A stretch of 32,346 nucleotides of DNA, taken from positions 1 through 32,346 of the forward strand of contig CACZWL010000024.1 of NCBI GenBank assembly GCA_902784865.1, given 5' to 3'. The translations under genes were made by a program, and so were the position numbers. The stretch comes from an uncultured Bacteroidota bacterium (GTDB lineage Bacteria; Bacteroidota; Bacteroidia; Bacteroidales; P3). Position 1 is the first letter of the stretch, and every line of letters begins with the position of its first letter. This document shows positions 2,079-19,911 of this stretch, piece after piece. A model generated the notes under the pieces. The model saw nothing but the letters and a program-made list of their open reading frames with translations, made no database searches and had not been told where the DNA came from.

Positions 2079-3635
2079 ATGAAAGCCACCATCCTCTGGG
2101 CCGACGACGAGATCGACCTCCTCAAGCCCCACATCCTCTTCCTCGAAGAGAAAGGTTATACAGTCAATGCCGTATGCTCCGGCACCGATGCGCTGGAAGA
2201 GCTGGAGGCATCGCAGCCCGACCTGGTGCTGCTCGACGAGCAGATGCCCGGCCTGACAGGGCTGGACACCCTCCGCACCATCAAGGAGCGGTGGCCCGCC
2301 GTGCCAGTGGTCATGGTGACCAAGAGCGAAGAGGAGCACGTCATGGAGGACGCCCTCGGCGGACGCATCAGCGACTACCTGGTCAAGCCGGTCAGCCCCA
2401 GCCAGCTGCTGCTGACCGTCAAGCGCCTCACCGAAGGGCGACGCCTGCAAGGCGAGCACTCGTCGATGGACTACCAGCGCGAGTTCCGCGACCTGGCCAT
2501 GCAACTCGACAGCGGCCGCGATGCCGACGAGTGGGCCGAGATGCAACGCCGCCTGGTACGCTGGGACCTCGAACTCGCCGCCATCGACGACCGCAATATC
2601 CACGACATCTTCCTCGCGCAGCGGCGCGACGCCAACCGCCTCTTCTGCCGCTTTGTCGAAGACCACTACCGCAACTGGCTCGCCGGCAGCGAGGAGAAAC
2701 CCTTGATGAGCCACACCCTGCTCCGCGAGCGGCTCTTCCCCCTGCTCAAAGGCGACAACCCGGTGTTCCTCATCGTCATCGACAACTTCCGCTACGACCA
2801 GTGGAAGACCGTCCAGCCACTGCTGGAGCAATACCTGCGCGTCGAACGCGACGATGTCTACTACGCCCTCCTGCCCACCACCACCCAGTTCGCCCGCAAC
2901 GCCATGTTCGCCGGACTGCTGCCGTCGGAAATCGAGCGCAAATACCCACAATACTGGGTCAACGAGGACGAGGAGGGCCACAAGAACCAGTACGAGAACG
3001 AACTGCTCGGCGAGAACCTCCGCCGGCACGGCATCGGCATTCGCCACACCTACCACAAGGTTCTCAACGCCCAGTACGGCATGAAACTCGTCGACCGGGT
3101 GCCCGAACTCATGCGCAACCCGCTGAACGTGGTGGTGTACAACTTCATCGACATGCTATCCCACGCACGCACCGAGAGCAATATCGTGCGCGAACTGGCC
3201 GCCGACGAACGCGCCTACCGCTCGGTGACACTCTCGTGGATGGAGCACTCGCCACTGCTGGAACTCATCAAAGCACTCGCCGACCGCAACGCCACAGTGG
3301 TGCTCACCACCGACCACGGCTCGGTACGCATCGACCGCCCCGTGCGCGTCAAGGGTGACCGCGACGTCAGCGTCAACCTGCGATACAAGCAGGGACGACT
3401 GCTCGACTACAACCCAAAGGAGGTCTTCGAGATGAAGAACCCCGAGGACATCTTCCTCCCCAGGCGGCATGTCACCGGCGGATACATCTTCTGCCGCGAG
3501 AACGATTTCTTCGCCTACCCCAACAACTACAACCAGTACGTGCAGTACTACACCGACACCTTCCAGCACGGCGGCCTCTCCATGGAGGAGGTCCTCGTGC
3601 CGTTGGCCGTGCTGCGCAGCAAAACATCACGCTGA
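2079..3635 (+). CDS. porX: PorX-type response regulator with alkaline-phosphatase-like (PglZ) output domain
   Basis: A 518-aa protein, the length of Porphyromonas PorX. An N-terminal receiver domain (about 1-120) has the acidic pair Asp9/Asp10, phospho-acceptor Asp53 in LLDEQMPG, switch Thr81 and Lys103 in LVKPVSP. After a helical linker comes an alkaline-phosphatase-superfamily PglZ domain. It shows a metal-binding aspartate in VIDNFRYD (Asp235), LLPTTTQFARN (Thr267-269), TTDHGS (Asp412/His413) and a C-terminal QHGGLS (His497). In the family PorX works with PorY and SigP to control the type IX secretion system, and the effector domain has zinc-dependent phosphodiesterase activity. I chose the ATG at 2079 because MKATILWADDE is the canonical family start; an in-frame TTG at 1977 would add an unrelated extension. 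uvrA begins 2 nt after the stop. Confidence 0.93.
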   Translation: MKATILWADDEIDLLKPHILFLEEKGYTVNAVCSGTDALEELEASQPDLVLLDEQMPGLTGLDTLRTIKERWPAVPVVMVTKSEEEHVMEDALGGRISDYLVKPVSPSQLLLTVKRLTEGRRLQGEHSSMDYQREFRDLAMQLDSGRDADEWAEMQRRLVRWDLELAAIDDRNIHDIFLAQRRDANRLFCRFVEDHYRNWLAGSEEKPLMSHTLLRERLFPLLKGDNPVFLIVIDNFRYDQWKTVQPLLEQYLRVERDDVYYALLPTTTQFARNAMFAGLLPSEIERKYPQYWVNEDEEGHKNQYENELLGENLRRHGIGIRHTYHKVLNAQYGMKLVDRVPELMRNPLNVVVYNFIDMLSHARTESNIVRELAADERAYRSVTLSWMEHSPLLELIKALADRNATVVLTTDHGSVRIDRPVRVKGDRDVSVNLRYKQGRLLDYNPKEVFEMKNPEDIFLPRRHVTGGYIFCRENDFFAYPNNYNQYVQYYTDTFQHGGLSMEEVLVPLAVLRSKTSR

Positions 3636-17488: not shown

Positions 17489-18097
17489 CTAGGCGTCGCG
17501 CTTCTGCTTGAACCACTCGGCGAAGCGGGGCAGGTCGTCAAGGGGTTGGAAACCAGCCTTGAAGGGGTCGTCGGGCAGGGCGACGGTCTCCATGTAGCCG
17601 ATGAGGGTGGCGCAGTCGAACTCGCCGAGCAGGGCCTCGAGGGTGACGTAGACGCCGACCTGGAAGTCCTCGTCCTGGCTCTGGCCGCCTTCGACGGCGA
17701 TGCGGAGGCCCATCAGGTCGGGTTCTTCCTCGCACTCAAGCTGTTGGAAGTGCATCTTGCGGGTGTCGAAGAGGTAGCGGTCGAAGCGCACCTTGAGTTC
17801 GGTGCCGAGGGGTTGCTTGAAGGCCTGGAACTCCCACCAGTCGAGGTCGGGGGCCGCGTCGACCAGTTCGACGACGTAGCGGAAGAGGTCGGTGTCGCCC
17901 TCTGCGGTGAAGGTGAGGGTGCGGCCGTTGGCGGTGGGGGCGCCCATCTCGTAGGCCAGGCCGTCGCAGTAGGCGGTGAGCTGCGCCTGCAGGGCCTCTT
18001 CGAGGCCTGCGCGCTCTTTCTCACCAAGGTCGTTGAGCATCACCAGCTGCTCGTTGTGGTCCTCGAACCACTGCCAGAATGTCTTTATCTTTTCCAT
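17489..18097 (-). CDS. Uncharacterised acidic protein, 202 aa
   Basis: Soluble acidic protein, MEKIKTFWQWFEDHNEQLVM at the N-terminus and PRFAEWFKQKRDA at the C-terminus, with no signal peptide or TM segment. The middle alternates predicted beta-strands (GRTLTFTAEGDTDLFRYVVELV, PDLDWWEFQAFKQPLGTELKVRFDRYLF) with a QxGVYVTLEALLGEFDCATLIGYMETV segment. That looks like a small globular domain with a conserved core (E-F-D-C, G-Y-M-E). I do not recognise a named family. Codon use matches the GC-rich neighbours, which supports a real gene. It lies downstream of the GxxExxY cassette, and its start is 54 nt from the cassette's left inverted repeat. Confidence 0.75.
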   Translation of the reverse strand: MEKIKTFWQWFEDHNEQLVMLNDLGEKERAGLEEALQAQLTAYCDGLAYEMGAPTANGRTLTFTAEGDTDLFRYVVELVDAAPDLDWWEFQAFKQPLGTELKVRFDRYLFDTRKMHFQQLECEEEPDLMGLRIAVEGGQSQDEDFQVGVYVTLEALLGEFDCATLIGYMETVALPDDPFKAGFQPLDDLPRFAEWFKQKRDA

Positions 18098-18150
18098 GTA
18101 TTATAAATTGTTTTACGACAATTATTTATTATTCCACGACAACGTGTTTT

Positions 18151-18173
18151 TTTCGACGACAACAGCGACAACT
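18151..18173 (+). repeat. Left 23-bp inverted repeat of the GxxExxY cassette
   Basis: TTT followed by CGACGACAACAGCGACAACT, perfectly inverted at 18708-18730. Weaker ACGACAA copies precede it at about 18113-18142. Confidence 0.85.
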
Positions 18174-18174
18174 G

Positions 18175-18197
18175 GAAAAACGCAACATGCGTTTTTC
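18175..18197. repeat. Left inner hairpin of the cassette
   Basis: GAAAAACGCA - ACA - TGCGTTTTTC, a perfect 10-bp stem with a 3-nt loop, 1 nt inside the left inverted repeat and 25 nt past the GxxExxY stop codon. It could double as a transcript 3' end. Confidence 0.8.
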
Positions 18198-18221
18198 TTG
18201 AGGCGCGTGGTGGTGAAGGTG

Positions 18222-18662
18222 TCAGGTGTCATATCTGTTTCGTAGGGTATTGCCTTCTGAATTGAGAATGACGTTCTCGTCGTGGTCGTAGTAGTAGCGC
18301 TCTATGTCGGCGTAGGAGGGGGCAAAGTTGACCAGCAGGCCGATGGCGGCATGGGCTATGTGCATGTAGTTGAACAGCTGTGCACGGTGCTCCTTGTCGA
18401 GGCTTTTGACTGCCTTGAGTTCGACAATGATATCGTTCTTGCAGAAGAAGTCGAGATAGAAGATTGTGTCCATCGGCCTGCCGCGGTAGACGGGGTGGAT
18501 GGCCTTCTCGCGCTCGAAGGGGATGCCCTGCGCGGAAAGCTCGATGGCGAAGCCCTCTTGATAGACCTTCTCGTTAAGCCCGGGCCCCAACTCCTTTTTG
18601 ACTGCGAGAATGGCGCCGATAACATCGTAGCTGTATTCCTTTAATTCGTCTATATCAATCAT
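18222..18662 (-). CDS. GxxExxY protein (PD-(D/E)XK nuclease-like)
   Basis: 146 aa, typical size for the GxxExxY family (PDDEXK_3). The name motif is GLNEKVY (Gly28, Glu31, Tyr34). A nuclease-like core follows, with Asp71 (FYLDFFCKND) and Glu81-x-Lys83 (VELKAVKSL) in the order expected for a PD-(D/E)XK metal site. The next segment, QLFNYMHIAHAAIGLLVNF, contains the family's QxxxYM/GLLVNF signature. The biochemical function of the family is not established; the fold argues for DNA binding or cleavage. All core residues are present. The gene is enclosed in inverted repeats with inner hairpins, which makes it the likely partner of those DNA structures (inference). The start ATG at 18662 lies 21 nt inside the right hairpin. 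Confidence 0.9.
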   Translation of the reverse strand: MIDIDELKEYSYDVIGAILAVKKELGPGLNEKVYQEGFAIELSAQGIPFEREKAIHPVYRGRPMDTIFYLDFFCKNDIIVELKAVKSLDKEHRAQLFNYMHIAHAAIGLLVNFAPSYADIERYYYDHDENVILNSEGNTLRNRYDT

Positions 18663-18683
18663 GCATTTGTTGTCTTAGGGGAG

Positions 18684-18706
18684 CGAAACGCCATGTTGGC
18701 GTTTCG
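18684..18706. repeat. Right inner hairpin of the cassette
   Basis: CGAAACGCCA - TGT - TGGCGTTTCG on the plus strand, so on the gene strand the loop is ACA as in the left hairpin. It sits in the 5' leader of the GxxExxY gene, 21 nt before the ATG, where it could also affect translation. Confidence 0.8.
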
Positions 18707-18707
18707 T

Positions 18708-18730
18708 AGTTGTCGCTGTTGTCGTCGAAA
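18708..18730 (-). repeat. Right 23-bp inverted repeat of the GxxExxY cassette
   Basis: Reverse complement of 18151-18173 with no mismatch, separated from the inner hairpin by 1 nt. It ends 12 bp before the murB stop codon. Confidence 0.85.
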
Positions 18731-18742
18731 TAATATGCATAG

Positions 18743-19768
18743 TCAGATGATGATGGTTTCGGGTTGGAGGTCGACGCCGAACTGTTGTCTGACATCCTGC
18801 TGTATGGCATGGGCGAGGGCGAGGACTTCCTCGCCGGTGGCGCCGCCGGTGTTGTAGAGCACCAGGGCCTGCCGGGGCCACACGCCGGCGCGGCCGAGGG
18901 TGCGCCCCTTCCAGCCGGCGCGGTCGATGAGCCAGCCTGCCGAGAGCTTGTTGCCGGGGTAGGCCGGCATGTCGGGGTGCGCCTTGACGAGCCGGGCGTA
19001 GAGGTCGTCGTCGACCACGGGGTTCTTGAAGAAGCTGCCGGCCGACCCATGTTCCTCGGGCCTAGGCAGTTTGGCCCACCGCAGCTCGGCTACCACCTGG
19101 CGCATCTGCTGCTGGGTGGGGTGGCCGATGCCGCGGCGCTGCAGCTCGTCGGCCAAAGCCTTGTATTTCAGGTTGGGGGCGAAGTCGGCGCCGAAGCGGA
19201 AGCGCACGCGGAGGATGAGGTAGCGCGCGGGGTCGTCCTTGAAGAGCGAGGAGCGGTAGGCGAAGCGGCAGTCGTCGCGGCCGAACTCGACGCGGCGGCG
19301 TTCGCGGAGGTCGACGGCCCAGACGCGGTCGACGAAGTCGCCCGTCTCGACGCCATAGGCGCCGGCGTTCTGCACCACGGCGCCGCCCACGGTGCCGGGT
19401 ATGGCGGAGAGGTTCTCCACGCCGCCGCCGTAGCCGCGGTCGACGCAGAGGCCCACGGCGCGGTCCATCTCCAGCCGCGCTCCGGCCGTGAGGTAGTGGC
19501 ACCCCTGGCCGCTGCCGACACTGACGGCGTCCTCGGCAAGATAGATGACGGTGCCGTCGAAATCCTTGGTAAAGAGCATATTGCTTCCGCCGCCGAGGAC
19601 GAGGTACGGCTCGCCGAGGAGGCCTGAGGCGAGGAGTTCGTCGACCTCGCTATCGAGGCGCGAAGGAGCGTCGGGGCTGCCGCCGCGCAGCTCGACCACA
19701 CGGCGCGCCGTGGCGGGGGTGCCGAAGGTGGTGAGCCCTTGCAGGGCGTGGTTCTCGTGGATGATCAT
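18743..19768 (-). CDS. murB: UDP-N-acetylenolpyruvoylglucosamine reductase
   Basis: 341 aa FAD-dependent reductase that makes UDP-MurNAc for peptidoglycan synthesis. Motifs in order are the FAD-binding LVLGGGSNMLF, AIPGTVGGAVVQNAGAYG, the substrate tyrosine/arginine segment FAYRSSLFK, and the proton-donor serine in GSAGSFFKNP. The C-terminal GRAGVWPRQALVLYNTGGATGEEVLALA includes the late helix with the catalytic glutamate. The arrangement with the YRxSxFK loop is the E. coli-like type I form. I chose the ATG at 19768 (MIIHENHALQGLTTFGT). A longer frame upstream would translate the tandem repeats and has no homology to MurB. A short extra segment near residues 30-50 (RGGSPDAPSRLDSEVDELLA) is a likely lineage insertion. 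Confidence 0.95.
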   Translation of the reverse strand: MIIHENHALQGLTTFGTPATARRVVELRGGSPDAPSRLDSEVDELLASGLLGEPYLVLGGGSNMLFTKDFDGTVIYLAEDAVSVGSGQGCHYLTAGARLEMDRAVGLCVDRGYGGGVENLSAIPGTVGGAVVQNAGAYGVETGDFVDRVWAVDLRERRRVEFGRDDCRFAYRSSLFKDDPARYLILRVRFRFGADFAPNLKYKALADELQRRGIGHPTQQQMRQVVAELRWAKLPRPEEHGSAGSFFKNPVVDDDLYARLVKAHPDMPAYPGNKLSAGWLIDRAGWKGRTLGRAGVWPRQALVLYNTGGATGEEVLALAHAIQQDVRQQFGVDLQPETIII

Positions 19769-19829
19769 AGGTCGGTTTTTCACATTATAACGCGGTCCCG
19801 GCCGAATTATTGTGCCGCGGTGCGAGGGC

Positions 19830-19911
19830 GGCAGGTATCTGGTAGGTGTCTGGTAGGTGTCTGGTAGGTGAATACTTCGACTCTTTCCCATCATTTCCCA
19901 TCGATGGGAAA
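19830..19911. repeat. Interspersed repeat copy A: 10-bp units plus conserved tail and palindrome
   Basis: GGCGGCAGGTATCTGG leads into three TGGTAGGT-type 10-bp units. The conserved tail GAATACTTCGACTCTTTCC follows, then TTTCCCATCGATGGGAAA, an 18-bp perfect palindrome (19894-19911). It occupies the 196-bp gap upstream of murB. A second copy with four units lies upstream of ileS (26860-26945). Confidence 0.75.

Follow-up and report, generated by a model that had tools for sequence, protein, structure and literature searches.

The window, the whole stretch of 32,346 nucleotides analysed here, contains a small gut-bacterial gene for a probable nuclease of the GxxExxY family, enclosed by inverted, hairpin-bearing ends, a structure that is real and selected and that exemplifies a wider pattern. 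Its ends are copies of a dispersed repeat composed of GACAAC units at 9-nt spacing and a covarying hairpin. There is about an even chance that the unit represents a REP- or REPIN-like dispersed repeat family together with a resident PD-(D/E)XK nuclease that acts in the manner of a RAYT. From these features we infer that the window protein would bind and cut the repeats and bring about their spread. The unit and its surroundings comprise the following features.

17489..18097, minus strand: 202-aa ORF, a conserved neighbour outside the element, with no match in Pfam or NCBIfam
18115..18122, plus strand: single ACGACAAT unit lying beyond the left end, read from the sequence
18136..18143, plus strand: single ACGACAAC unit lying beyond the left end, read from the sequence
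18151..18173, plus strand: left 23-bp inverted repeat (TTTCGACGACAACAGCGACAACT), with two GACAAC units at 9-nt spacing
18175..18197, plus strand: left hairpin, GAAAAACGCA-ACA-TGCGTTTTTC, a perfect 10-bp stem with an ACA loop, supported by covariation
18222..18662 (stop codon included), minus strand: gene for a GxxExxY protein of 146 aa, PD-(D/E)XK nuclease family, by profile matches
18684..18706, minus strand: right hairpin, read on that strand as CGAAACGCCA-ACA-TGGCGTTTCG, a perfect 10-bp stem with an ACA loop, its stem sequence unlike the left
18708..18730, minus strand: right 23-bp inverted repeat
18743..19894, minus strand: murB, a conserved neighbour outside the element

The two 23-mers are exact reverse complements with 0 mismatches, and a 1-nt spacer (G on the left, A on the right) lies inward of each. 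The symmetric ends described in an earlier, sequence-only reading of this DNA (23-bp repeat, 1-nt spacer, 10-bp stem, ACA loop) were reproduced exactly. Within positions 18001-18900 the longest perfect inverted repeat is 23 bp, compared to a maximum of 16 over 300 single-base shuffles of these 900 bp. Lone outer units are also found at orthologous loci. Conservation in 50 windows seeded on ACGACAAC covers the units at positions 11-16 and 20-25 but not the intervening spacers, with a seed that required a further unit or hairpin letters and so favours what is counted. Across 34 distinct hairpin sequences, a set that includes chance coding matches and whose seed fixes the loop core and likewise favours what is counted, stem positions 4-9 pair in 76-88% of cases versus 31-53% for mismatched halves, and position 10 pairs in 62% versus 37%. 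This covariation lends support to the earlier suggestion that the hairpins are selected structures. No known RNA family was found in the window.

The gene between the ends is matched by PF13366 (9.4e-35, 119.9 bits, cut-off 22) and TIGR04256 (2.3e-36, 124.7 bits, cut-off 35) and by nothing else in Pfam or NCBIfam, integrase, DDE, transposase and Y1 HUH domains included. Judged by its sequence, the product is probably a PD-(D/E)XK nuclease of the GxxExxY family and a probable DNA-cutting enzyme. Residues E31, D71, E81 and K83 are kept in 97 of 97 GxxExxY proteins of the genus and are taken as the active site because of their D...ExK pattern. The predicted structure (mean pLDDT 90.4, 17 sequences) is nearest to 4ic1 (SSO0001; E 7.7e-4) and then to lambda exonuclease (3sm4; E 8.8e-4); a sequence search of solved chains also ranked 4ic1 best, at a non-significant E of 0.71. 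The window protein thus resembles the PD-(D/E)XK nucleases Cas4 and lambda exonuclease in its predicted fold but differs from them in that the ten best structure matches reach TM values of about 0.5 at 12-21% identity and that Cas4 profiles match it weakly only (0.016 and higher). These weak profile matches agree with the identity of SSO0001, which we take to be a Cas4 protein. A role as a phage or plasmid defence gene was considered and rejected, PADLOC giving no convincing match (best 2e-4, 18.3 bits, residues 69-113). At an E-value of 1e-5, none of 50,697 phage records and 8 of 72,556 plasmid records matched the family.

The repeats extend well beyond this gene. The 20-bp core of the ends is found at 8 places in the window's own genome when up to 2 mismatches are allowed; of the 6 outside the window, one on contig C1 resembles coding sequence and one on C40 is an unpaired end. 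Allowing 3 mismatches gives 25 places, and the loosest of these are partly due to chance because a backward-read control gives 10. A wider pattern, GACAAC followed by GCAACATGC within 22 bases, yields 14 matches, with tandem units making some ends count twice, and none in the control. Four gene-less inverted pairs of 128, 135, 139 and 164 bp are located on C5 and C13, and unpaired ends on C5, C8, C13 and C40. The pair behind one conserved gene on C13 is present in the own genome only, that is in 1 of the 20 genomes read out of 56 with a match, and the downstream neighbourhood of this gene also varies. In correction of the sequence-only reading, the repeats are not private to the unit, and they do occur independently of GxxExxY genes, an outcome that it had named as refuting its proposal. 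A RAYT-like system would likewise show repeats without the gene. Two other arrangements were observed in the same genome. On C5 (L015, about 407-657 and 3213-3428), a GAATT-type element is directly followed by a GACAAC-type pair, twice and about 2.8 kb apart, which looks as if composite elements were duplicated. On C35 (L013, 236-325), a short array of CTAGAAAAA-type units is perhaps another repeat family.

At the locus of the gene itself, murB and the 202-aa ORF adjoin in all 30 same-genus genomes read out of 56 with a match. In 7 of these the gene unit separates the two and in 23 it is absent there, so the gene-less murB loci that had been proposed as a check do exist in relatives; these sites span 4 to 142 bases, stop codon included. 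On a tree of the murB and 202-aa ORF proteins, presence of the unit requires 5 changes. No target-site duplication was seen, the relatives being too diverged for exact junctions. Five pairs from the window's clade have dN values of 0.05-0.27, with dS of 0.9-2.3 in three and saturated in two, and at murB the gene is old, confined to one site and subject to purifying selection. Together with the gene-less repeats, this speaks against the self-contained minimal mobile element that had been envisaged. The spacer between murB and the 202-aa ORF holds other inverted arrays of short repeated units in two genomes that lack the gene there (L168 in G002, L164 in G009), and these are perhaps further repeat families. 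A different kind of locus is seen with GxxExxY units of the TTTAAC type, which interrupt a host gene at L009 (1434-1938; C32 of the own genome), L049, L052, L076, L083 and L119. Intact relatives of this host gene encode about 260 aa, and one that was tested matches DUF6261. At the six loci compared, the left part of the interrupted gene breaks off at the same point to within a few bases, and its right part shows varying degrees of erosion; in G047, an intact copy is present on another contig.

GxxExxY genes are common, and ends of this kind are a recurrent property of theirs. The own genome contains 5 family matches, 2 of them fragments, all flanked by inverted repeats that differ in sequence between copies; the three intact genes score 24-25 for their flanks and the fragments 17 and 11. 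Within the genus, the family is present in 43 of 59 genomes (41 over the cut-off) at 0 to 7 matches per genome. When 350 bp on each side were scored in the 113 instances with full flanks, out of 114, an inverted-repeat score of at least 15 was reached by 65 and of at least 20 by 36, compared to 10 and 1 of 250 mismatched pairs; control ORFs gave 8 and 7 of 280. In the phylum, 59 of 118 genomes carry the family, and 27 of 70 loci (30 returned and 40 hand-picked among the matches listed) score at least 15, versus 3 of 600 mismatched pairs. Scores below 15 are found for 48 of the 113 genus instances and 43 of the 70 phylum instances. The inverted-end architecture around GxxExxY genes recurs across Bacteroidota. 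After removal of 7 duplicates from the 114 genus instances, motif clustering used those 70 of the remaining 107 whose arm score was 14 or more, and in the larger motif families a short core recurs every 8-11 nt. A single strict pattern applied beyond the genus had no match in 11 genomes, and in G157 it recovered the two ends of the gene itself and no further copy.

The motif tends to follow the protein clade. On a tree of 97 proteins, with instances under 120 bits excluded, motif labels need 17 changes versus a shuffled mean of 50.4. Much of this clustering reflects shared site ancestry: of the 9 window-type (GACAAC) loci, 8 represent one orthologous site, and a second such site accounts for the CAAAAC loci. 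When shared flanks were merged and one protein was kept per site (27 sites, unassigned copies kept as one label), 8 label changes remained versus 13.1 after shuffling, and 0 of 200 shuffles were as low. Of 500 shuffles per motif, the number matching the observation was 0 for GAATT (5 sites), 7 for TTTAAC (4 sites) and 8 for ATC (2 sites). GACAAC is uninformative in this test, as 8 of its 9 loci are a single site, and the window's own family was for that reason rejected as proof of co-diversification. Protein clades differ from one another in their motifs and share them internally, which in three other motif families holds across unrelated sites as well. It is by way of this association, in families other than the window's, that the proposed link between gene and ends finds support.

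The co-occurrence of repeats with the gene is real and not strict. Of the 7 genomes that have the clade's gene, 6 hold at least 2 GACAAC matches, versus 2 of the 52 without it; leaving out the gene's own ends, the comparison is 5 of 7 versus 2 of 52 (p 8e-5), or 5 of 7 versus 2 of 14 among the 21 closest genomes (p 0.017). The two exceptions without the gene are G002 and G014, and in G007 and G045, which carry the gene, this pattern finds no dispersed copy. Raw match counts were corrected before being read as dispersal, since nested units count twice and the two matches in G007 are the gene's own end. Single matches in nine genomes (G004, G009, G012, G027, G028, G032, G037, G040 and G042) come without tandem units and were treated as chance. 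For GAATT, at least 2 matches occur in 10 of 10 genomes with the clade's gene, a core clade set by reading the tree and including one member (L026) below the clustering score, versus 9 of 49 without; GAATT-labelled copies outside this core (G041 and G053, 1 match each) were counted as lacking the gene. Among the 21 closest genomes, GAATT presence does not differ (9 of 9 versus 9 of 12, p 0.23) and counts do (p 0.003). Inward-facing GAATT pairs of 126-172 bp number at least 20 among the matches listed, as read by eye. For ATC-2, at least 5 places are found in 5 of 6 genomes with the gene versus 3 of 53 without, and at least 1 place in 20 of those 53, with the degraded copies in G000 (0 matches) and G035 (1 match) counted as without. 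Phylogenetically independent pairs number only 4, and the difference among them is not significant. A link of this loose kind would be expected if repeats outlive their enzyme or if they have no need of one. In G053, which is among the 3 genomes with at least 5 ATC-2 places and no such gene, 30 ATC-type places (up to 2 mismatches) are scattered over many contigs and no GxxExxY gene of that clade was found; either these are orphan repeats or the gene was missed.

REP/REPIN sequences and their RAYT genes share several traits with this system: dispersed short palindromic repeats, gene-less inverted pairs, a gene flanked by the same repeats and several repeat families per genome (PMC3733652). The analogy to REP/RAYT drawn in the sequence-only reading is supported, in a loose sense, by the dispersal of palindromic repeats, also as inverted pairs. 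The enzymes are unlike, a PD-(D/E)XK nuclease here and a Y1 HUH enzyme in RAYTs, as are the repeats, which are phased hexamers with a hairpin here and a GTAG-tagged palindrome in REPs; GTAG adjoins the window's right hairpin only, not the left. Y1 transposase genes are present in 40 of 59 same-genus genomes, and 14 of the 19 Y1 loci scanned have inverted flanks scoring at least 15. A RAYT as the mover of window-type repeats was rejected, GxxExxY motifs being found in 0 of these 19 loci. At two Y1 genes (L193 and L197), the flanking palindromes begin with GTAG, like canonical RAYT REPs in the form given in PMC3733652. CGTC REPs, which the same article describes as palindromic, paired, present in Bacteroidetes and other phyla and reported without a dedicated transposase, are another point of comparison. 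The window's repeats are also palindromic, paired and from Bacteroidetes, but they lack CGTC directly at the stem, CGTCG being placed at the repeat's outer edge, and their outermost stem pairs are not A-T. Stems of CGTC REPs are 8-9 bp with loops of 4-5 nt, compared to 10 bp and 3 nt in the window as paired; with the inner A-T pair open, the latter becomes 9 bp and 5 nt and would fit two CGTC families, which makes some relation to CGTC REPs conceivable. MITEs and terminal-inverted-repeat transposons are similar in having inverted ends, gene-bearing and gene-less forms and sites without the unit. They differ from this system, in which no transposase domain was found, gene copies are few and no target duplication was seen, the junctions being inexact.

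The gene sits between two ends, each combining phased hexamers with a hairpin on the inner side; if the repeats and the nuclease indeed form one system, the gene-less inverted pairs would be its dispersed form. The protein, probably as a multimer, would bind the 9-nt-phased units once a hairpin or cruciform is exposed in replication. Bound protein might then cut or trim at the exposed ends, and host repair would copy the element elsewhere. The gene itself would rarely move and would be inherited at one site, and other GxxExxY clades may act likewise, each with its own motif. The broader proposal, that GxxExxY proteins are dedicated nucleases of an undescribed REPIN-like superfamily across Bacteroidota in which every clade has its own recognition motif, composed of short units with a phase of about 9 nt, and is responsible for spreading gene-less inverted pairs, as a RAYT-like system with another enzyme fold, has a slightly less than even chance of being correct.

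Another process or a further enzyme could instead have spread the repeats, with the GxxExxY gene a captured passenger or its product a nuclease that restrains or processes the structures. This alternative is possible but on balance unlikely. It would account for repeats that occur without a gene: GACAAC in G002 and G014, GAATT in 9 of 49 genomes, ATC-2 in 20 of 53 (at least one place) and the 30 ATC-type places of G053. Y1 transposases are present in 40 of 59 genomes. However, it sits poorly with a motif that tracks the protein clade across different sites, with Y1 loci that carry other ends (0 of 19) and with invariant catalytic residues.

Alternatively, the ends might be cis-acting regulatory or structural elements (for mRNA stability, termination or autoregulation through GxxExxY binding), and the gene-less copies extragenic palindromes used by the host. 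The hairpins could indeed act in RNA, and conserved gene-less pairs stand at apparently one site in two species (L212 and L216), yet this explanation is improbable in view of the two-ended inverted architecture around the gene, the fixed size of the gene-less inverted pairs and the lineage-specific copies, such as the one found in 1 of 20 genomes behind the C13 gene. Least probable is a conventional autonomous transposable element that moves as a whole and whose deletion derivatives are the gene-less pairs. Two ends around one gene, a murB site with the unit in 7 of 30 genomes and without it in 23, and units of another clade that interrupt a DUF6261 gene are all in keeping with such an element. 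They are outweighed by the 0 to 7 family matches per genome at mostly orthologous sites, the lack of any integrase or DDE domain among the matches, the absence of a visible target duplication at these inexact junctions and a family matched by none of the phage records and by 8 of the 72,556 plasmid records.

In the literature searched, no account of GxxExxY function was found, nor, with preprints outside that search, any report linking the family to REP-like repeats; a passage of PMC8934634 mentions the family in passing, and the term occurs in PMC12085832. From the association of clade and motif, a DNA substrate can be predicted for each protein, which makes this family of no known role directly testable. 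If a RAYT-like role for the nuclease is true, populations of REP-type repeats depend on a second, unrelated class of enzyme, and repeats described without a transposase may have an enzyme that is not a transposase by fold. One further arrangement in the window's own genome involves whole elements, not single arms: on C7 (L011, about 1341-1434 and 1881-1972), a complete palindromic element of roughly 95 bp stands on each side of a GxxExxY gene, and L009 has a solitary related palindrome near 865-972.
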